DNA of 64,000 nucleotides, taken from positions 62,001 to 126,000 of the forward strand of contig CANOFW010000001.1 in NCBI GenBank assembly GCA_947565425.1. The letters are read 5' to 3'. A model generated the notes under the pieces. It did no database searches, was not told the DNA's origin, and was given only the letters and a program-made list of their open reading frames with translations. The translations under genes were made by a program, and so were the position numbers. The stretch is from an uncultured Lachnospiraceae bacterium. Lineage in GTDB: Bacteria; Bacillota; Clostridia; Lachnospirales; Lachnospiraceae. Shown here piece by piece: positions 2,356-60,002 of the stretch (position 1 is its first letter; every line of letters starts with the position of its first letter).

Positions 2356-2535
2356 GTAACAGTTCAGCCAGCCGAAAGAAATTGAGACAAATCATGCTAA
2401 GTGCCCTGTGGGTACGCATGGATTTGATGAGATTTCTTTTGGCTGAGGGAACGCCAAGTAATGAGCAAAGTTAGCTGCGAAGCAGCGAGAAAGTGCCGTA
2501 GGCACCTTTGCGAATGGCGTGGGCTGAACTGTTAC
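2356..2535. repeat. Palindromic element A (180 bp)
   Basis: Bounded by perfect 14-bp inverted repeats, GTAACAGTTCAGCC at 2356-2369 and its complement at 2522-2535. The interior folds into two arms. The right arm (about 2440-2521) is a conserved module found almost unchanged in element B (59840-60002) and shortened in element C (52959-53083). The left arm (about 2366-2442) is a long hairpin with a sequence of its own, and its tip holds the word that recurs at 5534 and 51467. A lone half-copy of the end (GTAACAGTTCAAC) follows at 2541. No protein is encoded; a 90-codon open frame across it is not credible. Most of the otherwise gene-free stretch 2326-2584 is this element. Confidence 0.85.
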
Positions 2536-2584
2536 TAAATTGTAACAGTTCAACACGTATCTCAGCAGCCAACGGCAATTCCCA

Positions 2585-3713
2585 TCAATAAATGGCAGGG
2601 ATGCTGAACAGCCTTGTCCGTGTTCCGCTATAATCTGCATTGTATGACGTCTCCATCCAAACAATTTTCCCTTTACTGAGAATTGGCTGCGAGCTTCCCT
2701 GGAACCTCGTCCTCGAGGTCACCAGATACAGCGTCGAACCCTGCATATCCATCCGGCAGTTGCCGGCATCAAACGGCTCATATATCCCGACAAATGAATT
2801 AGAGGCTCCGCCTTTAATGCTTGCCGTCTTGCCCTTTTTCCATCTGCTATTGTATTTTATCACTTTTATGACAGTCTTCTTCTTGCTTTCCTGATGGTTT
2901 GCATAGCCAACCGCCACATAAAAATTCCCATCCGGTCCATGGTAAAAACCGCCCCAACGGTCATACCCTATATTTACTTTTTTCGTGCTCTTCACTTTCA
3001 GGGCTGAATCCAACGTATAGATTTTCAGGGAAGCGTCTCTCTGTACGCAGACAACATGGAGCTTGCCATTTGCCTGATAATAATATGTATCATCGCTATG
3101 CGCCCAGTTCCCGCCATACTGACCACCGAAGCCGGCATTACCGCTGACATTGTTCTGCTCCACAGCTTTGGCTTTTCCGCTCTTGGGAATAAACTGAGAA
3201 ACAGACCTTGAAAATTCACTTTCCCCTTCCGGATATACTGTAACCAGCTTATAAAAATACGTCACGCCCTTGTCCACTTTCTGCTTATAGGAAGATTTAC
3301 TCCCGCCTCTGATTTTGGATACGCATTTGTACGCGCCGTTCTCATATCTTAATGACATTCGTATTGGAACTTGACACCTGCAGCGTATACGGGGTATCCG
3401 TTACATTTTCATATTCATAGCTTACACCGCTCATATCGCCCGGAAACAGCCCATCTTCCTCGCCATCCCACTGTTCTTTAGATAGTTTAAAATAAAGTCC
3501 TTTGTCCTGCCCATTCGTTTCGTTCCCTACTCCTGCAGCTTTCTTTTCCCCAGCGAATGATGCTTTATCTTCCCATTGCACTTCCCTGGTTTCCGCTTCT
3601 TCATGAAATTGTATTTCCTCTGCGGCTCTTGCTGCTGTAGCCTGATTCATCTGACTTGGATACATTCCTACAAACAATCCTGCCGCCAGTAAAATAGCAG
3701 TTATTTTTTACAT
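2585..3713 (-). pseudogene. Broken secreted protein gene (signal peptide, Fn3-like segment, propeller-like C-terminus)
   Basis: Three lesions are visible. The ATG at 3713 has a good ribosome binding site (GGATGGGGAAAA) and opens a signal peptide, but codon 2 is TAA; a one-base reversion to AAA would give M-K-K-ITAILLAAGLF. The reading frame then runs to 3342 (fragment of about 111 codons, ending VSSSNTNVIKI) and is broken. The next frame (2585-3358) resumes in the middle of an Fn3-like domain (GGSKSSYKQKVDKGVTYFYK), which implies a deletion or frameshift at the join. The C-terminal half has repeated aromatic and glycine-rich strands resembling a beta-propeller and stops abruptly about 50 bases before palindromic element A. 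The original function is not known; it was probably a cell-surface or secreted protein. Confidence 0.7.
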
Positions 3714-3742
3714 AAGTTTTCCCCATCCTTCAAAACCATTCA

Positions 3743-5335
3743 TTATATAAGCTTTGTCTTTTTAATCATCTGACAGAACTCACGGTTATTGTTGGTGCGC
3801 ACAAAGAGATTGAGAATGCTCTCCACCGCCTCATCCGCCCGCATACCATTGATGGCACGACGCATAATCTCCACAGCCTCCTGCTCTTCCCGATTCAACA
3901 ACAAATCTTCCCTTCGCGTCCCTGATTTCGTAATGTCAACCGCCGGGAAAATACGGCGTTCTGAAAGTTTGCGGTCCAGAATCAATTCCATATTGCCTGT
4001 CCCTTTAAATTCTTCATAAATCACATCATCCATACGGCTTCCGGTCTCCACCAGCGCAGTCGCCAAGATTGTGATACTTCCTCCCTCACGCATATTTCTG
4101 GCAGCGCCGAAGAAACGTTTCGGCATATGTAACGCTGCCGGATCAATACCACCGGATAATGTTCTTCCACTCGGCGGGACAATCAAGTTATATGCCCGTG
4201 CCAGGCGCGTGATACTGTCTAAGAGAATCATAACGTCTTTCTTATGCTCTACTAAACGCCTTGCACGCTCAATGACCATTTCCGATACACGCTTATGGTG
4301 CTCTGGAAGTTCATCAAACGTAGAATAAATCACCTCTACATTCTTACCCTCAATTGCTTCCTTGATGTCAGTAACTTCCTCAGGACGCTCATCAATAAGA
4401 AGAATGATCAGGTGCATCTGGGGATTATTCCTGGTTACTGCTTTGGCAACCTGCTTCAACAATGTCGTCTTTCCTGCTTTGGGCGGAGACACAATCATAC
4501 CTCTCTGCCCCTTGCCAATGGGAGAAACTACATCCATGATACGCATAGCAACCGCGCTTCGGTCTGTTTCAAGGCGAATACGCTCATTGGGAAAAATTGG
4601 CGTAAGATCTTCAAAATTCGGCCGGCGCAAGATCTCCGAGGGATGACAGCCATTGATGCTGCGGATATACAAAAGCGCACTAAACTTCTCTTGCTGCGTT
4701 TTCACCCTCGTATTGCCCTGAATAATATCGCCTGTTTTCAAGCCAAATTTGCGAATCTGCGATGGCGAAACGTACACGTCGTTCTCGCCTGGAAGGTAAT
4801 TTTCACACCGGATAAACCCATAACCATCCGGCATAACTTCCAGGATTCCATGCGCGCTGATGCCGCTATCCAGTTCAGGATTATCAATCTCAATACCGTC
4901 TGCCGTGATAACTTTTGTCGGCTTGCGTTCCTGCCGCTCCCCATTCTCTATGCGCTCATTTTTGATATATCTGTCGCTATGTTCACTTTTCGCTGTCCCT
5001 TTATCTGCTGGTACAACCGTCTTCTCTTTGCCTCTTCCTGCGGTCTTCTCCTCACCTCTAGCAGTCCCCTTGTTTCCTGCTCCAGTTATCTCCTCTTCTC
5101 CTTTTTCTGCTTTCTTATCTGCTGCCTTCTTATCTGTCGTCTTTTTCTCTGCTCTGCTCGCATCCTTCTCTTCTGTCTCTTCTAAAGCGTCTTCTTTTAA
5201 CGCATCCTTTTTATCCTCTTCGAGCATCAACTCTACCAGCTCTTTTTTCTTCAAACCGGAAAGATGCTTTAACCCCCTCGCTTTCGCAACATCCCTCAAT
5301 ACTGCCACAGATAAACTCTCATACTTTTCTCTCAT
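3743..5335 (-). CDS. rho: Transcription termination factor Rho
   Basis: A 530-residue hexameric RNA helicase that ends transcription. In order it has an N-terminal SAP-like Rho_N segment (about 1-40), a charged low-complexity insert rich in Lys, Glu and Ala (about 40-135), a cold-shock-like RNA-binding domain ([20 protein letters not shown], about 168-190), and the ATPase core with the Walker A motif [10 protein letters not shown] and the [12 protein letters not shown] segment. The insert makes it about 110 residues longer than E. coli Rho; such inserts are known in several phyla. It is preceded by AAAAGGAGAA and is probably transcribed alone. Confidence 0.97.
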
Positions 5336-5424
5336 ACATTTCTCCTTTTATTATATACATTGGGAATCTATGTCAGAGCAGACAACGACTTCATGCACAG
5401 AACTTGTGCCTCTGTAATGGGTCC

Positions 5425-5453
5425 ATTATACACTATCTTTTTTTAAATAGGAA
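5425..5453 (-). promoter_or_regulatory. Candidate rho promoter
   Basis: A perfect -10 box TATAAT (plus-strand positions 5425-5430) lies about 90 bases upstream of the rho ATG. The -35 region (TTCCTA at 17 bases) is a poor match, so only the -10 supports the call. Confidence 0.45.
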
Positions 5454-5464
5454 GTCCTTTTTTC

Positions 5465-5493
5465 TTGATTTGATTTTTTTTTCATGCTATGAT
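5465..5493 (+). promoter_or_regulatory. Malic enzyme operon promoter
   Basis: TTGATT (5465-5470), a 17-base spacer with a long T run, and TATGAT (5488-5493). It is about 115 bases upstream of the malic enzyme ATG and runs back-to-back with the rho promoter. The leader between contains both recurring short words (see repeat at 5534). Confidence 0.65.
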
Positions 5494-5533
5494 GGGAACA
5501 GCAATACTTTCCTTAGTCAAATATCCGCGCATA

Positions 5534-5584
5534 CCCACAGGGCACTTAGCGTGGCTACTTGGCTCATTGCTCGCGGGAATAAAA
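5534..5584. repeat. Recurring short words in the malic enzyme leader
   Basis: CCCACAGGGCACTTA (5534-5548) and CTCGCGGGAATAAA (about 5570-5583) both occur here. The first word also occurs at about 51467 and in the tip of element A (complement, about 2398-2412). The second also occurs at about 27982 and 51484. They are non-coding and look like pieces of a dispersed repeat. Confidence 0.7.
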
Positions 5585-5609
5585 TGAAAAATATAAAGGA
5601 GCGATACAT

Positions 5610-6764
5610 ATGACTACACAAGAAAAAGCCATCTTCTTACATAAAGAATGGAACGGTAAATTAGAAACCGTTGCAAAATCCCCGGTAACGACACGCGAGG
5701 ATCTGGCTATCGCCTATACGCCTGGCGTGGCGGAACCTTGTAAACTCATTGCCGACAATCCCACCGACGTTTATGTTTACACGATGAAAGCAAACACTGT
5801 CGCTGTCGTCTCTGACGGAAGCGCCGTGCTAGGGCTTGGCAACATCGGCCCTTACGCTGCAATGCCTGTTATGGAAGGTAAATGCGTGCTTTTTAAAGAG
5901 TTCGGTGGTATTAATGCGGTTCCTATCTGCTTAGACACTCAGGACACAGAGGAAATTATCAAAACCATCTCCTACCTGGCTCCCGGATTTGGCGGCATCA
6001 ACTTAGAGGACATCTCTGCTCCCCGCTGTTTTGAAATAGAAGAGCGGCTGAAAGAAACGCTATCCATCCCTGTCTTTCATGATGACCAACATGGAACAGC
6101 CATTGTCGTGCTCGCTGGTATCATCAATGCACTGAAGGTCGTTGGCAAGCAAAAAGAAAACTGCCGGGTCGTTGTAAACGGCGCCGGTTCTGCCGGCATT
6201 GCCATTACAAAACTGCTTCTCACCTACGGTTTCCCCAACATCATTATGTGCGATCGTCTGGGAATTATTGGTGAAGATTATCCTGATTTGAACTGGATGC
6301 AGCAAAAAATGACATCGCTCACCAATCTGGAACATCAAACAGGTTCGCTCGCCGATGCCTTAAAAGGCGCAGATATTTTTGTGGGCGTTTCTGCACCAGG
6401 AATCGTAACTGCCGAAATGGTCTCCTCCATGAACACAGATGCCATTTTGTTTGCTATGGCAAATCCCGTTCCAGAAATAATGCCAGACATCGCCAAAAAA
6501 GCCGGCGCAAGAATTGTGGGTACCGGACGCAGCGACTTTCCCAATCAGGTCAACAATGTCGTAGCATTTCCAGGCATCTTCAAAGGAGCTTTGGAAGGCC
6601 GCGCGTCACAGATAACAGAAGAAATGAAACTTGCCGCCGCCCAAGCCATTGCGCAGCTCGTGTCAGAAGATCAGCTCAATGAGAATTTCATCATGCCGGA
6701 GGCATTTGATCCCAGGGTTGCACAGGCAGTAAGCAAAGCAGTCAAATCCCATATACCAGGTTAA
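5610..6764 (+). CDS. NAD(P)-dependent malic enzyme
   Basis: A 384-residue short-form malic enzyme that decarboxylates malate to pyruvate. It has the AYTPGVAEPC motif near residue 34, the YTMKANTVAVVSDGSAVLGLG segment with the catalytic lysine, metal-binding FHDDQHGT near 155 and the dinucleotide-binding GAGSAGIA motif near 190. Length fits the compact bacterial form without a phosphotransacetylase domain. The start has AAAGGAG 8 bases upstream. The cofactor preference cannot be settled from sequence alone. Confidence 0.93.
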   Translation: MTTQEKAIFLHKEWNGKLETVAKSPVTTREDLAIAYTPGVAEPCKLIADNPTDVYVYTMKANTVAVVSDGSAVLGLGNIGPYAAMPVMEGKCVLFKEFGGINAVPICLDTQDTEEIIKTISYLAPGFGGINLEDISAPRCFEIEERLKETLSIPVFHDDQHGTAIVVLAGIINALKVVGKQKENCRVVVNGAGSAGIAITKLLLTYGFPNIIMCDRLGIIGEDYPDLNWMQQKMTSLTNLEHQTGSLADALKGADIFVGVSAPGIVTAEMVSSMNTDAILFAMANPVPEIMPDIAKKAGARIVGTGRSDFPNQVNNVVAFPGIFKGALEGRASQITEEMKLAAAQAIAQLVSEDQLNENFIMPEAFDPRVAQAVSKAVKSHIPG

Positions 6765-6768
6765 TCAC

Positions 6769-7701
6769 ATGTGGAATGACAAACGCTACTATTCCATAGA
6801 TTACTATTTAAAACAAACATTCGGCGAAAAAGTCTACCGCCTTGCCTTAAACGGCGGTATGACCTGTCCGAACCGTGACGGCACGTTAGGCAGGCGGGGA
6901 TGTATTTTTTGCAGTTCGGCAGGCAGCGGCGACTTTGCCCAGCAAAGCAGTAAGCCTATCGCCCGCCAGCTTGCCGCTGCCAAAGAACAGATACGGCAAA
7001 AACGAAATTGCCAAAAATTCATTGCTTATTTCCAGGCATATACCAATACTTATGCTCCAGTAAGCTATCTGAGAAAAATATTCACGGAGGCAATTACAGA
7101 CCCGGACGTAGTCGTCTTATCCATTGCCACACGGCCTGACTGCCTGTCACCGGATATCTTAGCGCTTTTAACTGAACTGAATCAACGCAAACCTGTCTGG
7201 ATAGAACTTGGCCTGCAATCTATTCATCCCGACACCAGTCGCTTCATTCGCAGCGGATTTACACTGGAATGTTTTCACGCGTCCGTGCAAGCTCTTGCCC
7301 GTTGCAACATCCCAGTGATTGTCCATGTGATACTGGGACTTCCCTGCGAAACAAAAGCACAGATGATAGAAACGGTCCGACACGTAGGCAGTTTAGGTGT
7401 CTTCGGTATAAAACTGCAACTTCTACACATACTGTCTGACACAGATTTAGGCGCATTATACAAAGAATCTCCCTTTCCTCTGCTTTCCCAGGATGAATAC
7501 TGCGAGCTGATTGTCGACTGTCTGGAACAACTGCCCGAGAGTATCACCATCCACCGTCTTACTGGCGACGGACCGAAAGATTTATTGATCGCTCCCATGT
7601 GGAGCCGCGCCAAACGCAGCGTACTCAATCAAATCGAACAAACCCTGAGAAAACGCGATACCTGGCAGGGAAAGTATACAAAGGCGAATCCTTTTATATA
7701 A
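6769..7701 (+). CDS. TIGR01212 family radical SAM protein (YhcC-like)
   Basis: 310 residues. The Fe-S cluster cysteines appear in a spaced arrangement near the N-terminus (CPNRDGTLGRRGCIFC), as in the YhcC/TIGR01212 branch where the first gap is longer than in classical CxxxCxxC enzymes. It also has the HVILGLPCET segment of the Elp3/MiaB-like fold. Its substrate is not known. It starts 4 bases after the malic enzyme stop and is probably co-transcribed. Confidence 0.88.
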   Translation: MWNDKRYYSIDYYLKQTFGEKVYRLALNGGMTCPNRDGTLGRRGCIFCSSAGSGDFAQQSSKPIARQLAAAKEQIRQKRNCQKFIAYFQAYTNTYAPVSYLRKIFTEAITDPDVVVLSIATRPDCLSPDILALLTELNQRKPVWIELGLQSIHPDTSRFIRSGFTLECFHASVQALARCNIPVIVHVILGLPCETKAQMIETVRHVGSLGVFGIKLQLLHILSDTDLGALYKESPFPLLSQDEYCELIVDCLEQLPESITIHRLTGDGPKDLLIAPMWSRAKRSVLNQIEQTLRKRDTWQGKYTKANPFI

Positions 7702-7759
7702 TATCCTTCAGACAACAACAGGAACAAGACTTTTAAAATATTCGATAAGGAGCAATACT

Positions 7760-8275
7760 ATGGCGGAGGCATCGACACAATACAAATTGATTGTACTTTA
7801 TATGCTGGATCAGGTAGATTTTCCCCTGACGAACACGCAAATTTCTAACTTTATGCTCGATAAGGACTATACCACATATTTCACTGTGCAAAAAGCAATC
7901 AGCGAATTGATTGATGCCGGTCTGATGCGTACGGAGTCTACATACAACAACACCCACTATTACATTACACCTGCCGGCAGGGAAACGCTTTCCTACTTTC
8001 CTGATAAAATTTCTGAGGCTATCAAATCAGATGTTCTCAGTTATTTTGCAGAAAACCAAATGAAATTGCGGCAAGAAGTCTCCACAATTGCAGATTATTA
8101 TAAGACAACTTCCCAGGATTTCGCCGCACACTGCCAACTCAAAGAGCGGAATCAATCTCTGATTGACCTGACTATCACTGTCAAATCCAAGGCTGAGGCC
8201 GAGGCAATCTGCTCGAACTGGAAAGCCCAACATGAGGATGTCTATGGTTATCTGATGGATTTATTACTAAGATAA
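7760..8275 (+). CDS. DUF4364 family protein
   Basis: 171 residues. The N-terminal 75 residues look like a winged helix (YMLDQVDFPLTNTQISNFM and a strand-turn-strand at THYYITPAGRETL), followed by a small alpha/beta domain. This matches the DUF4364 family common in Clostridia, whose role is unknown; the fold suggests a DNA-binding regulator. A good SD (AAGGAG) precedes the ATG by 7 bases. It converges on the zinc-ribbon gene at 8407. Confidence 0.85.
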   Translation: MAEASTQYKLIVLYMLDQVDFPLTNTQISNFMLDKDYTTYFTVQKAISELIDAGLMRTESTYNNTHYYITPAGRETLSYFPDKISEAIKSDVLSYFAENQMKLRQEVSTIADYYKTTSQDFAAHCQLKERNQSLIDLTITVKSKAEAEAICSNWKAQHEDVYGYLMDLLLR

Positions 8276-8358
8276 GCATATCTAACAATGCTTATAATCT
8301 CCTCTATCAACATAAAAAACACTTTGAGATTACAAGATATTCCTATAAGAAAGAATCA

Positions 8359-8374
8359 GCGGCCGCATGGCCGC
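8359..8374. terminator. GC hairpin between convergent genes
   Basis: GCGGCC and GGCCGC arms around GCAT form a perfect hairpin between the convergent DUF4364 and zinc-ribbon genes. On the minus strand it is followed by TGATTCTTTCTT, so it could end transcription leftward. The T tract is interrupted. Confidence 0.5.
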
Positions 8375-8406
8375 CGGTAAAACACATAATATAATGTATA
8401 AAAGAT

Positions 8407-8856
8407 TTAATCCTCGCTGTCTGAGCCGTCCTTTTCCAGAAAACGCATTTTACTCTTCTCACCGCCCAACTGCAAAGGTACAAAGCCCGTAGCAGTGTGG
8501 AACTTCTCTCGGTAACATTTCTGGCAGAGTGTGCCAAACGTAATCTCTGCACCACACATAGAACAATGCATATTCATCATCTTCTGCTCTTGTTCCTTAT
8601 ATTCAACCCTTCCTTCCGCAATCCACTTCTTAACCAAAAGATGCGGAATATTGAAATGTTCTGCCACCTGATACTCTGTCACATCCCTGGATCGTATGTA
8701 TTCCTTGACTTCTGAAAACAGATGATTCTCCTGACAAACCGGACACATATCTGCTTCATAATTCTCAGGAAGGCTCCTGTGGCATACTGAACAAAATTTC
8801 ATATTGTCAAACAACGACGTCTGTTCCAATGTCTTCACCACTTTTCTTAATCTCAA
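8407..8856 (-). CDS. Zinc-ribbon / helix-turn-helix / zinc-ribbon protein (YvyF/TIGR03826-like)
   Basis: About 149 residues in the longest frame. It has CSVC...CPVC (residues 22-41), a helix-turn-helix-like middle (VTEYQVAEHFNIPHLLVKKWIAEGRV) and a second CSMC...CQKC pair near 98-115. The layout resembles the flagellar-operon protein TIGR03826/YvyF, but no flagellar genes are nearby. The longest frame starts with TTG at 8856; the ATG at 8802 (MKFCSVCH) is an equally plausible start and removes 18 unconserved residues. Function unknown; binding of nucleic acid is an inference from the fold. Confidence 0.75.
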   Translation of the reverse strand: MRLRKVVKTLEQTSLFDNMKFCSVCHRSLPENYEADMCPVCQENHLFSEVKEYIRSRDVTEYQVAEHFNIPHLLVKKWIAEGRVEYKEQEQKMMNMHCSMCGAEITFGTLCQKCYREKFHTATGFVPLQLGGEKSKMRFLEKDGSDSED

Positions 8857-8862
8857 CTACAA

Positions 8863-9450
8863 TTACTGTTTCTTTTTCTTTACACTATATCCAAAAGTTC
8901 CCAAAATATCGTTTAAACCATAATAAGCGCCATGCGAGTAAATAATCGGCTCCGCCTGCTCTAAATGAAACTTTCCGCTTTTATCCATATAAGCTTCCGA
9001 AGCGTGCACTGCTACAACCTCGGCTAAAAACATATGATGAGAACCTAGTTCTATACACTGCGTCACTCTGCATTCCATATTCACCGGACTTTCCCCTATC
9101 AAGGGCGGCGCAACCTTTGATGCCTTTTGTCTGGTGAGATGCAAAGCTGCAAATTTATCAATATCCCTGCCAGATTTCACGCCGCAATAATCCGTTGCAT
9201 ACGTTAATTCCCTGGTCGTAAGGTTAATCACAAATTCTCCGGTTTGAGCTATCATCTGATAAGAAAACCGTTCCGGCCTCACAGAAATATACGCCATAGG
9301 CGGATTGGTGCAGATCGTACCTGTCCATGCCACTGTAATAATATTATCTCGCCCAGCTTTATCTGCCACAGTCACCATAACTGCCGGAACAGGATAAAGC
9401 ATATTTCCCGGCTTCCACTCCTGTTTTCGATAAACAAAATCTTCCTGCAA
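8863..9450 (-). CDS. Flavin reductase family protein
   Basis: 195 residues. The FMN-binding split-barrel pattern is clear: NMLYPVPAVMVTVAD, NIITVAWTGTICTNPPMAYISVRPER and TGEFVINLTT. These proteins reduce flavin or act as small flavoprotein oxidoreductases. I place the start at the TTG at 9450 because AGGAG lies 7 bases upstream and overlaps the stop codon of the preceding gene; the longer open frame to 9507 would overlap that gene. Substrate unknown. Confidence 0.85.
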   Translation of the reverse strand: MQEDFVYRKQEWKPGNMLYPVPAVMVTVADKAGRDNIITVAWTGTICTNPPMAYISVRPERFSYQMIAQTGEFVINLTTRELTYATDYCGVKSGRDIDKFAALHLTRQKASKVAPPLIGESPVNMECRVTQCIELGSHHMFLAEVVAVHASEAYMDKSGKFHLEQAEPIIYSHGAYYGLNDILGTFGYSVKKKKQ

Positions 9451-9460
9451 AACTATACTC

Positions 9461-10213
9461 CTAGAAAAAACCAAACATATGAGCAAGGATTGCCGCAATG
9501 CCCACAAAATTTACTACGCCAAGGATAATCATTACGCCAAAGTATCCCTTCATCACTTTCATACTCTGCGCGCCCACTTCCACATGCTCGATTTTTGCTT
9601 CTAATTCCTCCACCAAGGTCTGTATATTACGATAACATTTCACATTCTCTCGGTGAATCTTATCTCCGAGCTCTGTTTTGACTGTCTCAAGCTTCTCAGC
9701 AGTATCATCGTCTTCCTTAGAAACTTCTGCCAATTTCTCCACTTCCGCACGGACTTTCGCAAGTTCCGCAGAAAAGCCCTCTAATGTGTCTTTTATAGAC
9801 TTTGTCTGCTGCTCTAACTGCTCTGTTGCAGATGTTGAAAAGTCTTGAATCTTTTTATCCAATTCTGCCATTCCCTGTCGTGAATTACTATTCATCTCCA
9901 CGACCTGCTCCGAAATCTGCTCTTGCAGCGTATTGATCTCACTTCCGATTGTCTCATCCATCACACGCATCTGCGCATCCACGCGTGAAATCAATGCATC
10001 AACCTGAACTCTTACGTTCTGTGTCAACTTATCTGCTTCTTCCTGCTTTCCATCTAGTATCTCCTGAAGATTCTTTGCCTTCTCTTCTTTCTCCTCTAAG
10101 ACGCCCTCCAGCTCTTCTACTTTACTCTCTTTCGTCGTCATCAGATTATGGAGATATTTTGCTTTTTCCTTAAATTCGTCAATTTGTTTTAAAAAAAAGT
10201 CTTCTTTCTGCAC
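9461..10213 (-). CDS. Tail-anchored coiled-coil protein, function unknown
   Basis: 250 residues. Residues 1-195 are almost entirely heptad-like helix rich in Glu, Lys and Gln, with a few breaks. Residues about 222-247 are a single hydrophobic segment (GVMIILGVVNFVGIAAILAHMF), so the protein should sit in the membrane by its C-terminus with the coiled coil in the cytoplasm. It resembles no family I can name. Its stop codon overlaps the SD of the flavin reductase gene, so the two are probably co-transcribed. Confidence 0.75.
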   Translation of the reverse strand: MQKEDFFLKQIDEFKEKAKYLHNLMTTKESKVEELEGVLEEKEEKAKNLQEILDGKQEEADKLTQNVRVQVDALISRVDAQMRVMDETIGSEINTLQEQISEQVVEMNSNSRQGMAELDKKIQDFSTSATEQLEQQTKSIKDTLEGFSAELAKVRAEVEKLAEVSKEDDDTAEKLETVKTELGDKIHRENVKCYRNIQTLVEELEAKIEHVEVGAQSMKVMKGYFGVMIILGVVNFVGIAAILAHMFGFF

Positions 10214-10325
10214 CTTATTATATATCCTTTCTTATGTTATGGATATTATTGTAACATTAGACCTGCCTTTTTGCAAGTTTGAGAAACAAATCGCACTCTG
10301 GGGATTTCTGCCGACAGAACAAATG

Positions 10326-11000: not shown

Positions 11001-11068
11001 AGCAAATACTCCTTTCTCATTCGTACCCACTTCTGATAACCCGGCTTCCATTCTCTCCTATGACATTT

Positions 11069-11830: not shown

Positions 11831-11833
11831 CGC

Positions 11834-51351: not shown

Positions 51352-51390
51352 AAAAAGATACTGCTCAAAGGAACAGTATCTTCTCTTTTC
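51351..51390 (-). terminator. Terminator of the decarboxylase operon
   Basis: AAGATACTG and CAGTATCTT arms around a 10-base loop, followed on the minus strand by TTTTTCTTAAT. It lies about 120 bases after the oadA stop. Confidence 0.85.
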
Positions 51391-51441
51391 CTAGTCAAAT
51401 ACTCCACAGCAATCTACGAGGTATGACCTAACTTGTTCTTT

Positions 51442-51498
51442 CCGCCCCAAAGGGCGGGGTATTTGCACCCACAGGGCACTTACCCTCGCGGGAATAAA
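51442..51498. repeat. GC hairpin and recurring words after oadA
   Basis: CCGCCCCAAAGGGCGG forms a hairpin (51442-51457). It is followed by CCCACAGGGCACTTA and CCCTCGCGGGAATAAA (about 51468-51498), both found in the malic enzyme leader, and singly elsewhere. This is the clearest copy in which the two words are adjacent. Confidence 0.65.
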
Positions 51499-51504
51499 AA
51501 CAAT

Positions 51505-52923
51505 TTAAACTGGATATGCTCCGTTCTTAGTATCAGCAACGGAAGCATCCACCTTTGTCTGTTGTGCTTCCCTATACTTGAAGAACTCTGTTGCAACCTG
51601 CGGGAACAGTGCATAAGAGAGAACATCCTCATCCTGCTGCTTCCACTGTTTCATCTCAGCCTCAATCTTATGAAGCTCTGGCTCTAAGAGGTCTGCATAA
51701 CGACAAGTAATCGCATTCTTCTTCTCGTCGCCCAATACCTTATCAATCACTTTTTTGTCGAACGGCTTAACTGTCTGACCATATTTTCCAAGCAATACGT
51801 CCTTGGTCTCCTTGGTAGCAACCTTGTAACGCTCGCCCATCAATACATTGAATACAGCCTGTGTGCCGACAATCTGGGAAGAAGGTGTAACCAGAGGCGG
51901 CTCACCCAAGTCTTTACGCACACGCGGAATCTCTTCGAGCACGTCCATATACTTGTCTTCTGCGTTCTGCTCTTTTAACTGAGATACCATGTTGCTCAAC
52001 ATACCGCCCGGCACCTGGTAAAGTAAGGTCTGGATATCCACGCCCAATACCTTGGGATTCATCAATCCGCTCTTCAACGCCTCTTCTCTCATCGGACGGA
52101 AGTAGTCTGCAATCTCCTTTAACAACATCTGGTCAAATCCCGGATCCATCTCAGTTCCGCGGAATGCCTCAGCCATAACTTCCGTTGCCGGCTGGCTGGT
52201 GCCCAGCGCGAAGGGGGACATAGCCGTATCAATAATATCACAGCCTGCCTCCACAGCTTTCAGATAAGTCATGGAAGCCACACCAGAGGTATAATGAGTA
52301 TGTAACTCAATCGGAAGTTTGGTTGCTTTCTTTAAGGATTTTACAAGTTCTTCTGCCTTATAAGGTGTCAAAAGACCTGCCATATCCTTGATACAGATGG
52401 AGTTAGCGCCCATCTCTTCGATCTTCTTAGCCATATCCGTCCAATACTGCAAGGTGTAAGCATCACCTAACGTATAGGAAAGCGCAACCTGCGCATGGCC
52501 TTTTTCCTTATTGGTAGCGGTTACTGCCGTCTGAAGATTGCGTAAGTCATTCAGACAGTCAAAAATACGGATAATGTCAATACCATTGGCAATGGATTTC
52601 TGTACAAAATATTCTACCACGTCATCCGCATACGGACGGTAACCTAAAATGTTCTGTCCACGGAACAACATCTGCAATTTTGTATTCTTAAATCCTGCTT
52701 TGAGTTTTCTCAAACGATCCCATGGATCTTCCTTCAGGAAACGCAAGGATGCATCAAATGTCGCGCCACCCCAGCACTCTACGGCATTGTAGCCGACTTT
52801 ATCCATTTTATCAATAATAGGCAGCATCTGCTCTGTTGTCATACGAGTAGCAATCAGAGACTGATGCGCATCACGTAATATGGTCTCCGTAATCTTAACG
52901 GGTTTTCTCTTCTTTTCAGCCAT
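51505..52923 (-). CDS. Carboxyltransferase, oxaloacetate decarboxylase alpha / pyruvate carboxylase B type
   Basis: 472 residues. DRE-TIM barrel with LRDAHQSLIATRM (start), the metal/Lys region KDMAGLLTPYKA and HTHYTSGVASM. It transfers CO2 between oxaloacetate or pyruvate and biotin. It lacks the C-terminal biotin domain, as expected since a separate carrier gene is upstream. It is equivalent to the 5S subunit of transcarboxylase. ATG 52923 has GGAGG. Confidence 0.9.
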   Translation of the reverse strand: MAEKKRKPVKITETILRDAHQSLIATRMTTEQMLPIIDKMDKVGYNAVECWGGATFDASLRFLKEDPWDRLRKLKAGFKNTKLQMLFRGQNILGYRPYADDVVEYFVQKSIANGIDIIRIFDCLNDLRNLQTAVTATNKEKGHAQVALSYTLGDAYTLQYWTDMAKKIEEMGANSICIKDMAGLLTPYKAEELVKSLKKATKLPIELHTHYTSGVASMTYLKAVEAGCDIIDTAMSPFALGTSQPATEVMAEAFRGTEMDPGFDQMLLKEIADYFRPMREEALKSGLMNPKVLGVDIQTLLYQVPGGMLSNMVSQLKEQNAEDKYMDVLEEIPRVRKDLGEPPLVTPSSQIVGTQAVFNVLMGERYKVATKETKDVLLGKYGQTVKPFDKKVIDKVLGDEKKNAITCRYADLLEPELHKIEAEMKQWKQQDEDVLSYALFPQVATEFFKYREAQQTKVDASVADTKNGAYPV

Positions 52924-52958
52924 GATTTCCTCCATTCAAATTTTACATTATAAAATAT

Positions 52959-53083
52959 ACTATTCAGCACACACCATTCGCAAAGACGCTTACAACGGAT
53001 GGCGTTCCCTCAGACGAAATATGCTATACAAAATCTGTGCGCGCACGATTTTGCATACCCTTTTCGTCTGGCTGAATTAGTAA
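52959..53083. repeat. Palindromic element C (about 125 bp) between oadB and oadA
   Basis: Degenerate ends (TACTATTCAGCAC and GGCTGAATTAGTA). It keeps CCATTCGCAAAG and GGCGTTCCCTCAG of the conserved module but lacks the central stem of copies A and B. Its arm is a hairpin (CAGACGAAA and TTTCGTCTG ends) of its own sequence. It fills the whole gap between oadB (stop 53085) and oadA. Confidence 0.75.
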
Positions 53084-53084
53084 A

Positions 53085-54233
53085 TTATATTCCAAATATT
53101 GCCATAAACACACCTGCTGCTACGGCCGTACCGATAACGCCTGCAACATTGGGGCCCATCGCATGCATCAGCAAGAAGTTGGTAGGATCTTCTTCTGCTC
53201 CAACCTTCTGGGACACACGCGCTGCCATCGGCACCGCCGACACGCCGGCAGAACCAATCAGCGGGTTAATCTTGCCGCCGGTAATCTTACAAAGCAGCTT
53301 GCCGAACAATGTTCCTGCCGCTGTACCGAACATAAATGCAATTAAACCGAGAGCTACAATCTTCAAAGTTGTGATATTTAAAAATGCCTCTGCGCTGGTC
53401 GTTGCACCTACGGAAGTTCCCAGCAGGATAACTACGATGTACATCATTGCGTTGGAAGCCGTCTCTGACAACTGACGAACCACGCCAGATTCACGGAACA
53501 GGTTACCAAGCATCAGCATACCCACCAACGGAGCCGTTGTTGGCAAGATAATACATACGACTGAAGTAACTACGATAGGGAATAAAATCTTCTCCAGCTT
53601 TGATACTGGACGTAAATTCTCCATCTTGATCGCACGCTCTTTCTTAGTAGTGAAGAGCTTCATGATTGGCGGCTGGATAATCGGCACTAACGCCATATAG
53701 GAATAAGCGGCCACCGCAATCGGTCCCATCAGACCAGTCTGTCCCAACTTACCTGCAAGGAAAATGGACGTAGGACCGTCCGCTCCTCCGATAATAGAAA
53801 CGGCTGCCGCTGCCTTATCGTTAAAACCAAGCAAAATTGCCATGAAATATGCGCCAAAAATACCAAACTGTGCTGCTGCTCCCAACAGGAAACTGATGGG
53901 ATTTGCAATCAGCGGACCAAAGTCTGTCATCGCTCCAACACCCATAAAGATCAAAGATGGGAGGATGGACCACTCATCCAGAGAATAGAAATAATAAAGT
54001 AAACCACCTACGCCATTGCTGGTCTCTTCCGGGGAAGCAATAATATCAGGATAGATATTAACCAGCAGCATACCAAACGCAATCGGAACCAGTAACAGGG
54101 GCTCAAATCCTTTTTTGATTGCCAGGAAAAGGAATATGAATGCAACCAATATCATCACATAGTTACCCCAGGTCAGGTTGAAAAATGCGGTCTGATGCAG
54201 GAGGTTTGATAAAGTTTCTCCTACGTAACTCAT
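53085..54233 (-). CDS. Sodium ion-translocating decarboxylase, beta subunit
   Basis: 382 residues, about nine to ten hydrophobic segments. Family marks are [32 protein letters not shown] and [15 protein letters not shown]. It decarboxylates biotin-CO2 and exports Na+. Upstream lie the biotin carrier and OadG. Confidence 0.95.
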
Positions 54234-54250
54234 ATTTTACCTCCAAATAA

Positions 54251-54622
54251 TTAGTTGTTCATAGTTGCCAATAATGCGCCTGCCTCTACAGCCTGTCCTG
54301 CGCTCACTTCGATGCTTGCCACGGTTCCGTCTTCCGGTGCAACTACAGGCGTCTCCATCTTCATAACTTCCAATACTAAGATTGTATCGCCACGCTTTAC
54401 AGCGTCTCCAGCCTTCTTATCAATGCTGAATACTTTACCTGCCGCGCCTGCCTCAATCTTCACGCTTCCTGCGCCGCCTGCTGCGGGTGCCGGAGCTGCC
54501 GCCGGAGCCGCTACGGGCGCTGCTGCCCTTACTGGTGCTGCTGCCGGAGCTGCACCTGCGCCGTTTTCTTCTACAGTAACATCATAAACGTTTCCATTAA
54601 CAGTAATTGTATAGCTTTTCAT
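54251..54622 (-). CDS. Biotin carrier protein
   Basis: 123 residues. A Pro/Ala-rich hinge (about 22-50) precedes the biotinyl domain with VLEVMKMETPV, whose Lys is the biotinylation site. It links the two carboxyltransferases with the membrane pump. Confidence 0.95.
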   Translation of the reverse strand: MKSYTITVNGNVYDVTVEENGAGAAPAAAPVRAAAPVAAPAAAPAPAAGGAGSVKIEAGAAGKVFSIDKKAGDAVKRGDTILVLEVMKMETPVVAPEDGTVASIEVSAGQAVEAGALLATMNN

Positions 54623-54661
54623 TTTCGTTTCCTCCTGAATATTCTATATATTAGTTGCCTG

Positions 54662-55450
54662 CTACCTTCTTCTGATGGAACGCACTACAAAATCACTTGT
54701 AGAAGTTCCGGTAGATGCTGCAATCGCCGCTGCGATTACGGCTGCCAATTCCAAATCATCCTGTGCCGTCACAGGGGCTGCCACCGGAGCTGCTGCGGGT
54801 GCCTCAGCTACCGCCGGAGCGCTGCTCTGCGCTTTTTTCTTCGCCTCAAGATATGGGAATACCTTGAATCCATAGATAATCAAACTAATCAGTATCAGAA
54901 CAATAAACACGATGCCCATACCCATTAAAGTGTTCAATGCGGCATTCGTCATCTTCTCGCCCAATGTCTGTACTGCCTCTACACCAATGTCCTCCAATTC
55001 CATATTATGGTACTTGTACACATAACTGAGGATCACCGGACGGTCTGTAAATTTAATTTCCTGCTTGCACTCTAATGTCTTGCCGGACTTGGTAATGGTG
55101 AATTCTCCCATTTCCACATATTCGCCTGCTTGGGCAACTGCCTCATCCCAGCGCATAATCATATTCGCCTGCTGAAGAATGCCTGCAATATCCTGCTCCG
55201 TAGCAGAAGGAGCAACAGATTTGATATAGTTGTTGCGCTCTGCATCCGACATATCTTTCATAACAACATACGGCTGCTTCTGCTCATCTGGCATCTCCAA
55301 AAGTGATGTTACAGTTCCTTCACATGTGCTCTTTAACTGGTCATAACTGTAACCGTTATAACTCATTGTGGTAGGATCCGTTTCTCCGCATGCTGCCAAC
55401 CCAAGTGCGATAAGACACAAACTGATTATCAGCAATATTTTCTTTTTCAT
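54662..55450 (-). CDS. OadG-type gamma/delta subunit, lipoprotein form
   Basis: 262 residues. N-terminal lipoprotein signal (LIALGLAAC, Cys about residue 21), an extracytoplasmic domain, a membrane segment near 175-198 (IVFIVLILISLIIYGFKVFP), a Pro/Ala linker and a short basic tail. This is longer than typical OadG (about 85 residues), which lacks the lipoprotein part. The start at 55450 lies 13 bases after the carboxyltransferase stop. Confidence 0.8.
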   Translation of the reverse strand: MKKKILLIISLCLIALGLAACGETDPTTMSYNGYSYDQLKSTCEGTVTSLLEMPDEQKQPYVVMKDMSDAERNNYIKSVAPSATEQDIAGILQQANMIMRWDEAVAQAGEYVEMGEFTITKSGKTLECKQEIKFTDRPVILSYVYKYHNMELEDIGVEAVQTLGEKMTNAALNTLMGMGIVFIVLILISLIIYGFKVFPYLEAKKKAQSSAPAVAEAPAAAPVAAPVTAQDDLELAAVIAAAIAASTGTSTSDFVVRSIRRR

Positions 55451-55463
55451 AAACTTCACCTTT

Positions 55464-56897
55464 CTATTTTGCTGTATGTTTTCTGACCGGCTCGCCCGAT
55501 CCTTTCGTATAGAGCATCTCAAATGCCGCTACCGCATACTTTCTGGTATCTTCCGCTGCAATAATCAAATCAACTTGTCCACGCCTTGCTGCGGTCTGGA
55601 CAGAAGACTGTAACTCTTCGTAAGCTTTTGCTTTCTTGTTGATCACATCTGCGGATTCACCGTCATACATAATCTTAGCTGCCAGCTTCGCGTCCATCAT
55701 GCCAATCTTACTTCCATCCCATGCATAAACAAGGTCTGCACCGATAGATTTGCTGTTCATCATCACATATGCGCTTCCATAAGCGTTACCGATGATAACA
55801 TTTACCTTAGGAACGGTCGCCCCGGCAAATGCCGCCGTCATACGCGCCATTGCCTTTGCCAAAGACTTCTCCGAACATTCGGTAGCTGCAAAACCTTCTA
55901 CATTCGTCAGTGACAATACCGGAATGTCAAACGCATCACAGAACTTAACGAATTCTGCCGCCTTATTGCAGCCTCTTGCCGTCAATGCAGAATCAAAGCT
56001 CTCCGCTTTCTCGCCGCTTTCATCAAACACTGCCGCTGTATTGGCAACTGCGCCAATCGTCATGCCATTGAGCTTAATAAATCCAGTTACCATATTCTTG
56101 GCAAAATCCTTCTTAGTCTCAATAAATAAATTGCTGTCAGAGATGTGTGTCAGCACCAGCCTTGCATCTTCCTTGCATCCGGCAAGGTTCTCGCAAACAC
56201 GGTTCAAATCGTCTGTACACTCGTCTTCCCTGCCGCACTCTGCATTGTTGCCTGGAAGCACACATACCAGCTCGCGGATGGCAGAAAGAATCTCTTCCGT
56301 TGTACCAATTCCATCAATGCAGCCGTTGTTGCTTCCCTGATATTCAGCGCTTGCCGTATCGCATTTGCCGACATGGTTGCCCTCAATAGCATTCGGGGAA
56401 TTGACAAACATTCTGCCGTTTTCTTTCTCTGCAAAAGCGAAGTCGCTCAACGCTGGAACTACGGAAAGTCCGCCGCCGCAGGCACCGAAAATCGCAGAAA
56501 TCTGCGGAATTACACCGCTTGCCTGCACCTGCTTTGCATAGATTTCGCCAAAGCCATTCAACGCATCTACAGATTCCTGTAAACGCATGCCGGCACAGTC
56601 AATCATACCGATAACCGGCGCTCCCATCTTCATTGCCATATCATAGATAGCGGCAATTTTCTTACTGTGCATCTCACCAATCGTTCCGTTTAACACGGAA
56701 GCATCCTGGCTGTACACATACACCAGATTTCCGTCAATCAGACCATAGCCGGTGATGACGCCATCCGACGGAGTCTCAGACTGACTCAAATCAAAATCTG
56801 TACTTCTTGCAGTTACCAGAGCGCCGATTTCCATAAAACTCTTCTCATCGAGAAGTCCGGCAATTCTCTGTCTTGCTGAGTTGGTAGAATTACTCAT
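55464..56897 (-). CDS. Acyl-CoA carboxyltransferase subunit (methylmalonyl-CoA decarboxylase alpha-like)
   Basis: 477 residues. It has the crotonase-type carboxyltransferase fold with ARQRIAGLLDEKSFMEIGAL, AGMRLQESVDALNGFGEIY and FGACGGGLSVVPALSDFAF. It matches the 12S or MmdA type that takes carboxyl from an acyl-CoA such as methylmalonyl-CoA. It is the first gene of the decarboxylase operon. Confidence 0.85.
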   Translation of the reverse strand: MSNSTNSARQRIAGLLDEKSFMEIGALVTARSTDFDLSQSETPSDGVITGYGLIDGNLVYVYSQDASVLNGTIGEMHSKKIAAIYDMAMKMGAPVIGMIDCAGMRLQESVDALNGFGEIYAKQVQASGVIPQISAIFGACGGGLSVVPALSDFAFAEKENGRMFVNSPNAIEGNHVGKCDTASAEYQGSNNGCIDGIGTTEEILSAIRELVCVLPGNNAECGREDECTDDLNRVCENLAGCKEDARLVLTHISDSNLFIETKKDFAKNMVTGFIKLNGMTIGAVANTAAVFDESGEKAESFDSALTARGCNKAAEFVKFCDAFDIPVLSLTNVEGFAATECSEKSLAKAMARMTAAFAGATVPKVNVIIGNAYGSAYVMMNSKSIGADLVYAWDGSKIGMMDAKLAAKIMYDGESADVINKKAKAYEELQSSVQTAARRGQVDLIIAAEDTRKYAVAAFEMLYTKGSGEPVRKHTAK

Positions 56898-56988
56898 CGT
56901 TTAAACCTCCATATGTATTTTGAAATTTTTATAAAATTTTCTTCCGAGTGTAATTGTATCTCTTTTACTGCAATTTTTCAATAGCTAT

Positions 56989-58314
56989 TTAGCGAAAATA
57001 AAAATTCTTTTCCATAAAAAATAGCTTCATCAGAAAATCCTCATACCAGGAAGGTTCCAGTTTCTTTACCGACTTGCCGGCGCATATGGGAACCCGGGCA
57101 ATTTGACGCTCCCCAAGGTAATAAGTAACGCTGCCTACCTCCTGTCCTTCCTCAATGGGAGCCTGCAAATTCTTTGGCACGTCATAAATCGTCTTCACCT
57201 CCTCATCTGCCCGTTTAAGAACATTGATTTTTTCCTCTTTGATGCGCAGGGGCACCGTGATTTTCTGATAGAGACGACCGTTTTCCGGCTCTGCGTCAAC
57301 AGCCACTACCGGCGGAAACTCCTTGCCATACTCACAGACGTCCGTGTTCTGATACTGCTCTAGTCCATAATTCATCAACGCTGTCGTATCTGCCCATTTG
57401 TAACTCTTGTTGTTCGGCCAGCCACAAGCAAGCAGTGCCACCACAAAAGTTCTGCCTTCCCGCTCCAAAGCCCCCACATAGCAATAACCCGCATTTCCAG
57501 TAAACCCGGTCTTACCGGATAACGCACCGTCCATCATCTGCAAAAAAGCGTTGTGGTTATTGCAGTTGTAAGATTTTGTGCCTGCAAGGTTGGTGAACTG
57601 ATGATTTGCCGTCCGCGTAATTTCAAGAAACGTCTCATTTTTAATACAATAGCTCATAATCTTTGCCAAATCCTCTGCCGTCGTCCCATGTACTCCGATC
57701 TCATCCTGCCCATCCAGTCCATTGGGCGTAATAAAATAAGTGTCTTTACAGCCAAGCTCTTTGGCCTTTTGATTCATTTTCTCTGCAAAACCTTCCACAC
57801 TGCCCCCGATATGCTCAGCGATCGCCACCGCTGAATCGTTGTGCGACTCCAACATTAATGAATACAGCAAATCCCGCAGCCGGAACGTATCGTCCGTGCT
57901 CATGCCAAGCCTCACTCTAGGCATAGACGCCGCATAGCTGCTGATTTTTACTTCATCGTCAAGATTTCCCTGCTCCAACGTCAAAATGCAAGTCATAATC
58001 TTTGTTGTGCTGGCATTCGGCATATGCTCATAGCCGTTTTTTTCATAGAGCACCCTGCCACTTGCGGCATCCATGAGAACCGCTGATTTTGCATACAACG
58101 CGATATCCGGCTGCTTCTCCACAACAGATTCCTCTTTCGCTTCCTGCGGTTGTACCTCTTGCGCAAATCCTTGCCGAAACCCGGCGTTTACCTTGTGCGA
58201 AGGCTGCACTGCCAAACCGATGCACATACTAAAGAGCAGGATACGCCCTGCGAATCCTGCTCGAAAGCTATCACCATATAAATTTTTTAAGCTACTTAAT
58301 TTCAATTTTTTCAT
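56989..58314 (-). CDS. D-alanyl-D-alanine carboxypeptidase (DacF type)
   Basis: 441 residues. Signal-anchor near 20-40, SxxK active site in NASTTKIMT, SHN in LESHNDSAVAIAEHIGG and KTG in SGKTGFTGNAGYC. The C-terminal part (about 345-440) is the beta domain of PBP5-type enzymes, with a hydrophobic/aromatic tail. It trims the stem pentapeptide of peptidoglycan. It follows scpB by 65 bases. Confidence 0.94.
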   Translation of the reverse strand: MKKLKLSSLKNLYGDSFRAGFAGRILLFSMCIGLAVQPSHKVNAGFRQGFAQEVQPQEAKEESVVEKQPDIALYAKSAVLMDAASGRVLYEKNGYEHMPNASTTKIMTCILTLEQGNLDDEVKISSYAASMPRVRLGMSTDDTFRLRDLLYSLMLESHNDSAVAIAEHIGGSVEGFAEKMNQKAKELGCKDTYFITPNGLDGQDEIGVHGTTAEDLAKIMSYCIKNETFLEITRTANHQFTNLAGTKSYNCNNHNAFLQMMDGALSGKTGFTGNAGYCYVGALEREGRTFVVALLACGWPNNKSYKWADTTALMNYGLEQYQNTDVCEYGKEFPPVVAVDAEPENGRLYQKITVPLRIKEEKINVLKRADEEVKTIYDVPKNLQAPIEEGQEVGSVTYYLGERQIARVPICAGKSVKKLEPSWYEDFLMKLFFMEKNFYFR

Positions 58315-58379
58315 AATAAGGCTCTCTCATCCACTAACTGACTTCCCTTCATTATATGAAAAAGCCTTCGTTTTATGTC

Positions 58380-58949
58380 TTACACGTCCATTTTCACGTT
58401 CATTTCTTCTTCCGCCTGATGACGGAACTCCTCTAACTGATCTGCATCCAGCGTTGGAAGCTCCTCGATGGACTGAACGCCAAAACTGCGCAAAAATTCC
58501 TCCGTCGTACCGAACAAAAGCGGTCGTCCTGGCGCATCTAGCCTGCCAAGCTCACAAACGAGATTGTATTCTACCAGCTTGCTAACCGCATGGGCACAAG
58601 ACACACCGCGGATTTTCTCAATTTCCAGACGGGTAATGGGTTGCTTATAGGCGATAATCGACAGTGTTTCCAATAGTACATCCGTCAGCACATGGCGTTT
58701 GGGCTGCTTGGCAATCTTAATCAAATACTCGTATAGCTCTTTTTTTGTGCACATCTGCACATTGTCCTCAATCTCCATCAGTTGGATTCCGCGGTCTTCC
58801 CCTGCATACCGCTCCATCATACGATGAATGATTTCACGCACCTTCGCTTCCTCTATTTCCAGCGCCGCGGCAAGTTTTGATATTTCCACGGATTCCCCCA
58901 TGGCAAAAAGAATTCCCTCTATAATTGCTTCATACTGCTCTGAATTCAT
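58380..58949 (-). CDS. scpB: Segregation and condensation protein B
   Basis: 189 residues with two winged-helix domains (SEQYEAIIEGILFAMGES start; TDVLLETLSIIAYKQPITRLE). It joins ScpA and SMC in the condensin complex. I take the ATG 58949 with GGAG 5 bases upstream. Confidence 0.96.
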   Translation of the reverse strand: MNSEQYEAIIEGILFAMGESVEISKLAAALEIEEAKVREIIHRMMERYAGEDRGIQLMEIEDNVQMCTKKELYEYLIKIAKQPKRHVLTDVLLETLSIIAYKQPITRLEIEKIRGVSCAHAVSKLVEYNLVCELGRLDAPGRPLLFGTTEEFLRSFGVQSIEELPTLDADQLEEFRHQAEEEMNVKMDV

Positions 58950-59002
58950 AGTATCTCCATATCCTTGCATTCCCGTACTCTCTTCACGATTCTACACAAA
59001 AT

Positions 59003-59749
59003 TTACGCGGCTATCCTAGACTCAACAAAAATATCATCAAAAATACGTTCCTGGAAAATGTGAATTTTTCCGACCTTCATCAGCTCTAAAATCGACAAGA
59101 ACGTAACAATAATTTCCATCTTACTGCTCTGCGCCTCTAAAAGCCCGCGGAAACTGAATCGCCGGTGCGTCAGCGCATATTGTTCCAGATAACTCATACG
59201 CTCCTCCAACGATACTTCCTCCTTCTCAATTCGGCCAAAGCGGGAACGGATGGGGTCAATCTTGTCCTCTCTTTTGCGCATCACGGATTTAAAAATATCA
59301 TTGAGACGCTTAATACTGACGTCCGCCATCAATTCTTGTAAATTCACTGGTTCCTCATACTGACGAACCTCCCTAGGAATCGTCGGCACTTTAAACAGTA
59401 CCCGCTGCGCTTCTATCTGACGGTCTTTGAGTTCATAAGACATACATTTGTACATCTTATATTCAAGAAGCTTCTGTACCAGCTCTGCCCGCGGGTCTTC
59501 CTCTTCTTCCTCAGCCTCCTCCTTTGGCAACAGCATACGGGACTTAATATCCAAAAGCGTCGCTGCCATCACCAGAAATTCACTGACAATATTGAGATCA
59601 TGACGCTGCATCTCGCTTATGTATTCCATATATTGATTGGTAATCTCCACAATCGGAATATCGTAAATATTTACTTTGTTCTTTTCCAGCAAATGCAAGA
59701 GCAGATCCAACGGTCCCTCAAAGACTTGCAACTTTACTTTTAAATCCAT
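59003..59749 (-). CDS. scpA: Segregation and condensation protein A
   Basis: About 248 residues, kleisin of the SMC complex. It has KLQVFEGPLDLLLHLLEKNK at the start and a C-terminal winged helix. Start options are ATG 59749 (GGGGG 8 bases upstream), ATG 59755 or GTG 59764. scpB follows. Confidence 0.96.
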   Translation of the reverse strand: MDLKVKLQVFEGPLDLLLHLLEKNKVNIYDIPIVEITNQYMEYISEMQRHDLNIVSEFLVMAATLLDIKSRMLLPKEEAEEEEEDPRAELVQKLLEYKMYKCMSYELKDRQIEAQRVLFKVPTIPREVRQYEEPVNLQELMADVSIKRLNDIFKSVMRKREDKIDPIRSRFGRIEKEEVSLEERMSYLEQYALTHRRFSFRGLLEAQSSKMEIIVTFLSILELMKVGKIHIFQERIFDDIFVESRIAA

Positions 59750-59839
59750 TTCCATTTCCCCCACGAAATCACACTGCCTACCATTTTAACCGCATCAGGA
59801 AAATTTTGCAAGGAGTTTTTTATCCTCTGCTTTGAAATC

Positions 59840-60002
59840 GTAACAGTTCAGCCCACGCCATTCGCAAAGGTGCCTACGGCACTTTCTTGCTGCTTTCGCA
59901 GCTAACTTTGCTCATAAAATGGCGTTCCCTCAGCCGTATAAATCGTGTAAAATTCGTGCAAGCACGATTTTACACGATTTATACGGCTGGCTGAACTGTT
60001 AC
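59840..60002. repeat. Palindromic element B (163 bp) between amrS and scpA
   Basis: Perfect 14-bp ends GTAACAGTTCAGCC (59840-59853) and its complement (59989-60002). After the conserved module (to about 59935) comes a 20-bp perfect hairpin, GTATAAATCGTGTAAAAT with its complement around CGTGCAAGCACG. The arm is unrelated to that of copy A. Its last bases supply the amrS stop codon. Confidence 0.85.

Follow-up and report, generated by a model that had tools for sequence, protein, structure and literature searches.

The window analysed here, a stretch of 64,000 nucleotides from an uncultured Lachnospiraceae bacterium (GenBank assembly GCA_947565425.1, contig CANOFW010000001.1, positions 62,001 to 126,000 of the forward strand), holds three palindromic elements with common ends, A, B and C, and a related single long hairpin (Table 1). 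Sequence evidence places A, B and C, as copies of a single non-autonomous element, in a family of Lachnospiraceae miniature inverted-repeat transposable elements (MITEs). The elements of this family are mostly 163-165 bp long, too short to hold a transposase, and have 14-bp inverted terminal repeats (GTAACAGTTCAGCC), between which lie a conserved module (arm 1) and a variable hairpin (arm 2). A search of the window with R1, a covariance model of the family built from 58 copies, returned A, B, C and B read backwards (27.9 bits), with no other match at E<=1; the three-element pattern, described in the original prediction and confirmed here, is therefore not due to chance. An Rfam search of the window at gathering thresholds found one tRNA and no other match.

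Transposition and distribution of the family

In the own genome of the window, the 14-mer end was counted 101 times with at most 2 mismatches allowed, versus 19 times for the reversed pattern, and the end pattern GTAACNNTTCAGCC was found in 28 of 29 genomes of the genus, where the control gave 0-1 matches per strand. Among the 113 full-length copies of the branched family, which come from the loci in hand, 26 (A included) are flanked by a perfect 8-bp target duplication and 43 by one with at most one mismatch; control rates, obtained by pairing the flanks of different copies, were 0.00024 and 0.0037, respectively. Inverted ends combined with target duplications so far above control indicate transposition. 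A scan for stretches bounded by two such ends yielded, among those listed, 30 spans ranging from 64 bp to 702 bp (the longest convincing one), 11 of which are flanked by perfect 8-bp direct repeats. Eighteen complete or near-complete own-genome copies were aligned (alignment A1), besides which there are about a dozen further fragments.

The element family is mainly found in Lachnospiraceae. With B as query, matches were obtained in 18 of 61 genomes (own genome counted) and 2 of 33 genera. For a set of 93 stretches, most of the titles listed name Lachnospiraceae or genera such as Acetatifactor and Dorea, and a few give Ruminococcaceae, Clostridiales or Eubacteriales only. R1 matched 93 of 299 genomes of the family Lachnospiraceae at E<=0.001, some of which may owe their match to copies of the Clostridiales-1 RNA discussed below. 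At E<=1e-8 it matched 5 of 291 genomes sampled from the class; four of the five, again with the own genome counted, belong to the same family.

Within the window, A and B are 95% identical across 96 nt comprising the end and the module, and C can be aligned with either of them; about 36 nt of its module are missing, among them one inner hairpin and the ATGAGC strand. The prediction also held that each arm is private to its copy, which is not the case: B and C are 72% identical over 79 columns with the arm included, five further own-genome copies are 84-94% identical to B over almost its full length, and the arm of A aligns with the arms of B-like own-genome copies, from which it differs by stem substitutions and a 16-nt tip insert. 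The arms of A, B and C are therefore diverged versions of one arm. An A-type tip insert is present in 7 of the 113 full-length copies, all seven from the own genome (exact 12-base match), and an isolated sequence resembling it, CATACCCACAGGGCACTTAGCGTG, lies at positions 5523-5553 of the window. The target duplication of A and the fourth element were missed in the original prediction; the latter has ends similar to those of A, B and C and an 8-bp duplication with one mismatch. The flanks of B differ at 4 of 8 positions and thus give no clear target duplication. An extra end-like sequence, GTAACAGTTCAACA, adjoins A at 2542-2555, with a two-base overlap with the right duplication.

Table 1. Features of the four elements in the window (positions of the window; R1 scores in bits).
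Feature	Position	Strand	Remarks
Element A, complete, 180 bp	2356..2535	+	Folded strand (arm 2 then arm 1); R1 147.2
A, left 8-bp target duplication	2348..2355	.	TAAATTGT
A, right 8-bp target duplication	2536..2543	.	TAAATTGT
A, arm 2, variable hairpin	2370..2444	+	Limits set by eye
A, 16-nt tip insert	2399..2414	+	Limits set by eye
A, arm 1, conserved module	2451..2520	+	Tandem G.A loop 2463-2464 / 2512-2513; limits set by eye
Element B, complete, 163 bp	59840..60002	-	Folded strand; R1 169
B, arm 1 (module)	59855..59925	-	Limits set by eye
B, arm 2	59932..59988	-	All paired except one bulged A and the loop
Element C, degenerate	52957..53083	-	About 36 nt of arm 1 absent; R1 65.9
Related single long hairpin, 225 bp	60858..61082	.	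First end GTAACTATTCAGCC; near-duplication CTCAAAAA/CTCCAAAA

Other elements were also seen. Giant quasi-palindromes of about 701 bp with similar ends (L092:368-1069; L282-L290, L298, L299) are 80-83% self-complementary and 78% identical between two species, and shorter copies (591, 500, 338, 160 and 117 bp) look like central deletions; perfect 8-bp duplications flank those in L092, L282, L284, L288, L289, L298 and L299, and are imperfect or absent in the others. A hairpin element at L095:259-590 holds in its tip a second palindrome with ends like TGGGGTTGTCGCAC, and a similar stretch adjoins L012 (by eye). Head-to-tail arrays with about 160-bp spacing comprise four elements at G064:C3:77376-78020 and three at G259:C56:8991-9468.

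Folding, covariation and divergence of the interior

On the folded strand, arm 2 has a tip resembling AATCRTGCNNGCAYGAAT in most copies and an outer stem with little common sequence between distant copies, yet still paired. Arm 1 contains ATGAGC / GCGAAT with a tandem G.A, plus two smaller hairpins; the motif is exact in 50 of 58 copies and the G.A/G.A is present in 57 of 58. RNAalifold on a plain MAFFT alignment (103 of the 113 copies, namely those of 155-200 nt with C excluded; 91 after removal of those 95% alike) recovered only part of the fold and was rejected as the structure source, so the structure was drawn by hand from B, which favours B-like pairing; the covariation measures depend less on that choice.

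Covariation was measured on alignment A2, consisting of 57 copies (161-166 nt, less than 88% alike) plus B, with 58 sequences and 59 pairs. Paired cells make up 85.9% of the total vs 73.1% in shuffled alignments and 33-37% when the structure is slid, and cells changed on both sides, the compensatory changes by which the original prediction was to be checked, number 477 vs 178 shuffled. Covariation is thus very strong. Double-sided changes occur in all 16 outer pairs of arm 2, and on each of five measures 0 of 500 shuffles reach the observed value. The claim that the palindrome is kept while its sequence changes thus holds family-wide: the arm-2 stem drifts to unrelated sequence and stays paired, arms with little in common beyond the tip still pair, and the second reading of the original prediction, selection that acts on folding whatever the sequence, is well supported across the family. 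The arms of A, B and C turn out to be diverged forms of a single ancestor, the outcome that had been expected to refute the claim, which is thereby refuted in part; the family-wide pattern, however, is real.

Of the 31 columns outside the terminal repeats in which G.T and A.C counts differ, 24 have more G.T, and in the terminal repeats there are 22 G.T vs 31 A.C cells. By helix, the G.T:A.C counts are 68:47 (P2 outer), 28:9 (P2 tip), 13:3 (P3a), 1:2 (P3b) and 5:4 (P3c). In single-arm analyses, from which arms beyond length limits and near-identical ones were removed (for these counts, arms less than 60% paired as well), the ratio was 98:48, 63:30, 39:18 and 15:13 at redundancy cuts of 95, 85, 75 and 65% identity, respectively. 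Purine-purine to pyrimidine-pyrimidine mismatches in arm 2 range from 226:27 down to 41:9 in the most diverged set, with a purine excess at every cut. Strand-biased pairing of this kind, together with the tandem G.A loop kept in 57 of 58 copies, suggests selection on a folded RNA or single-stranded DNA. Tandem G.A can be stable in single-stranded DNA too, so RNA is not proven.

Arm divergence was compared with module divergence among 99 copies. Median stem identity is 0.88 for modules at least 0.97 identical (29 copy pairs), 0.85 at 0.93-0.97, 0.71 at 0.88-0.93 and 0.59-0.62 below that, with 0.54 for random stems. Stems thus diverge in step with their modules, and routine arm replacement, as had been proposed, need not be invoked; the change of the arms is mostly gradual, ordinary drift with pairing kept. 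Fourteen copy pairs depart from this pattern: their stem identity is 0.62 or less at a module identity of 92% or more. They are not independent, as several share a member such as L005, an own-genome copy in which a type-I module is joined to a type-II arm. These pairs look like exchange, and suggest that copies at times swap arms with one another. In expanded copies of 225-295 nt, further hairpins have been gained in the loops of arm 1. L183, L248, L226, L156, L241, L184 and L015, of 229-295 nt, carry a common structured insert, ACCTGAGGGGGGACCCAACGAAGTTGGGG and variants of it, in the arm-1 hairpin, and L241, L184 and L015 have a second insert besides.

The genomic context of 83 copies was recorded using a crude open reading frame caller (a frame within 500 nt on both sides, with repeated flanks excluded and 4 in-frame copies set aside). 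Copies lie between divergent genes more often than between convergent ones (22 vs 5). In tandem gene pairs they show no sense bias, by these crude calls, and a cis-regulatory role was rejected.

Candidate mobiliser and the Clostridiales-1 RNA

Pieces of IS66-type transposase lie between the same or nearly the same ends in relatives. L373 (genome G025) is 936 bp long, with ends GTAACAGTTCAGCC and GTAACAGTTTAGCC (0 and 1 mismatch) and a perfect 8-bp duplication, AATTTTTT; its 96-aa frame is 48% identical to residues 15-81 of the query piece from L359 (E 4e-11), the comparison by which it was assigned to the IS66 type. L359 (G018), 1397 bp long, has GTAACAGTTCAGAC at both ends and holds DUF6444 and PF03050 in two separate frames. 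In L360 (G025) one perfect end lies next to a 361-aa frame that is 52% identical to the L359 piece, with PF03050 just above the cut-off. The 8-bp duplication of the family has the same length as that of the own-genome IS66 copy and as the value of 8 given for two IS66 elements in a table of PMC3281130, in the column taken as direct repeat. From these pieces we infer that an IS66-type transposase may move the small elements in trans. Several candidates were discarded: the intact IS66 of the own genome (L105), whose ends differ (GTAAACGTCAAATCCCC); end pairs 1.6-3.4 kb apart in L163, L169, L173 and L235 and in L293 and L294, all without a duplication, the frames between them in the first four being unlike a transposase (judged by eye); and IS66 loci L332-L358, in which no convincing pair of family ends was found at 3 mismatches or fewer.

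The core arms, with the tandem G.A and a GCUUGC tip, are present in the family as they are in the Clostridiales-1 RNA (Rfam RF01699). In its sole mention in the main text of Weinberg et al. 2010 (PMC2864571), this motif is listed as probably RNA and not cis-regulatory. The RF01699 model aligns over its full length, below threshold, to L009, L016, L020, L022 and L241; no RF01699 match was found in the own genome at E<=0.001, and the remaining Rfam matches below threshold, such as those to microRNA families, were taken as chance hairpins. In the opposite direction, R1 has same-strand matches (E<=1) in 22 of the 30 best RF01699 loci, with top scores of 41.3, 38.8 and 37.3 bits, and gives no match in the other 8. 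We infer, more weakly, that the core of the family may share ancestry with Clostridiales-1.

RF01699 matches occur in 136 of 250 genomes, often at least 10 per genome, and the loci continue past the 3' end of the Rfam model as far as a second inverted repeat. All 30 best loci were inspected: 16 have an exact 5-6-bp repeat and two lack any end pair. Among the 24 with good ends (at most 6 mismatches), which form the basis of the duplication count, exact 5-6-bp repeats flank 16 versus 12 of 552 control pairings, and a duplication of the 8-bp type flanks none (0/24). Inverted repeats and 5-6-bp duplications indicate that the Clostridiales-1 copies examined are therefore also insertion elements, with other ends. 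The literature covered, including PMC2864571 and PMC8040213, yielded neither such a MITE nor an account of Clostridiales-1 as mobile.

Explanations and related systems

Taken together, the results are probably best explained by a mobile MITE family served in trans by an IS66-type transposase, with an interior selected for its single-stranded fold and perhaps kinship to Clostridiales-1. Of the two arms between the ends, arm 1 is conserved and contains the tandem G.A internal loop, and arm 2 keeps its tip and the pairing of its stem while the stem sequence changes freely; one strand would fold into a branched structure, as RNA or single-stranded DNA. With this fold under selection, stems would drift through paired substitutions, and copies would at times exchange arms or gain hairpin modules; if the common ancestry with Clostridiales-1 holds, one folded core would be carried by two kinds of transposon end.

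Several observations weigh against parts of this explanation. No intact transposase bounded by both family ends was found: L360 has a single end, L359 and L373 are broken, L359 has a 9-bp repeat and an end one base off the family end, and in L367 and L372 IS66-type matches and related ends are seen without a duplication. Genome G010 has 149 exact matches to the end pattern and zero PF03050 matches, so its mobiliser would be either absent from the assembly or another transposase. The best RF01699 score is 25.4 bits versus a gathering threshold of 48 bits, and sub-threshold matches were found in 4 of 10, 2 of 13 and 1 of 8 of the sources given. Other palindromes with family ends reach 20.6-29.4 bits with R1 (7 matches in 5 of 26 loci); as R1 scores these and B read backwards, only the top Clostridiales-1 matches discriminate. 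The context shows 29 copies in one orientation to 27 in the other in tandem gene pairs. The G.T excess is confined to arm 2 and the base of arm 1, and disappears among the 23 most diverged arms, so that common descent may have inflated it; given the unbiased final figure, the strand-bias evidence is moderate.

This last point is what a passive MITE would lead one to expect, in which only the ends matter and the interior stays palindromic because each side of a DNA hairpin is copied from the other by template switching or intrastrand conversion, giving paired changes without selection. G.T and A.C are about equal in those 23 arms, P3b and P3c have no G.T bias, and long quasi-palindromes, reaching about 701 bp, are found in other elements with these ends too. 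Neither the tandem G.A mismatch kept in 57 of 58 copies nor the purine excess of arm 2 would, however, be expected of a process blind to strand, and we regard a passive element as unlikely. The covariation most likely stems from selection on a single-stranded fold, and the main rival cause is template-directed repair of DNA hairpins. The original prediction that this is no ordinary MITE is half right: the family moves like one, but its interior is under much tighter constraint than a passive MITE would require. The same prediction offered, as one of two readings, an active process regularly swapping arm 2 for unrelated palindromes; the discordant pairs, the mixed copy L005 and the hairpin modules gained in loops fit that idea, which is nevertheless quite improbable given that stem identity is high between near-identical modules and falls with their divergence, and that most arms have a common tip. 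Strong covariation and the similarity to RF01699 would also suit a structured RNA gene or cis-element that is merely repeated, as Clostridiales-1 is filed, without transposition. Such a gene is hardly credible in view of inverted repeats and target duplications far over control in both families, transposase pieces within elements of the same or nearly the same ends, and the lack of a preferred orientation in tandem gene pairs.

Beyond the preferred explanation of a transposed and selected fold, we tentatively entertain a broader one, about which we are more doubtful than convinced: a self-contained folded nucleic-acid domain, the branched core with tandem G.A, could live as a parasite on insertion sequences, having travelled with two or more transposon types that differ in their ends and duplication lengths, its single strand selected for its own sake (e.g. 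by holding a host or transposase factor), with Clostridiales-1 RNA as one branch. Non-autonomous elements are usually thought to require their ends only, and here the interior of one covaries like a functional RNA over many genomes. The evidence that members of the Rfam small RNA family RF01699 are mobile would change the reading of matches in gut genomes, and the family is a ready test case for why a transposon carries a fold.

Among known systems, REP/BIME palindromes, which are linked to RAYT transposases, likewise occur as many intergenic palindromes per genome, whereas the elements described here are far longer and possess both inverted terminal repeats and target duplications. Hairpins with strand identity are also a feature of IS200/IS605-type single-strand elements; that family is not known to have a target duplication, which is present here. 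IS66 elements share the 8-bp duplication and, as in the own-genome copy, the initial GTAA, and relatives hold PF03050/DUF6444 pieces between the family's ends or nearly so, while the own-genome IS66 otherwise has different ends and the small elements carry a conserved folded interior. Clostridiales-1 is similar in the order of its arms, the arm-2 tip GUGCUUGCAC (GCUUGC), the UGAGCA / UGCGAAU of arm 1 with its tandem G.A, and its many copies in Lachnospiraceae; it differs in its ends (TGATG..GGGTCAAAAG vs GTAACAGTTCAGCC), in a duplication of 5-6 bp vs 8 bp, and in an extra hairpin.

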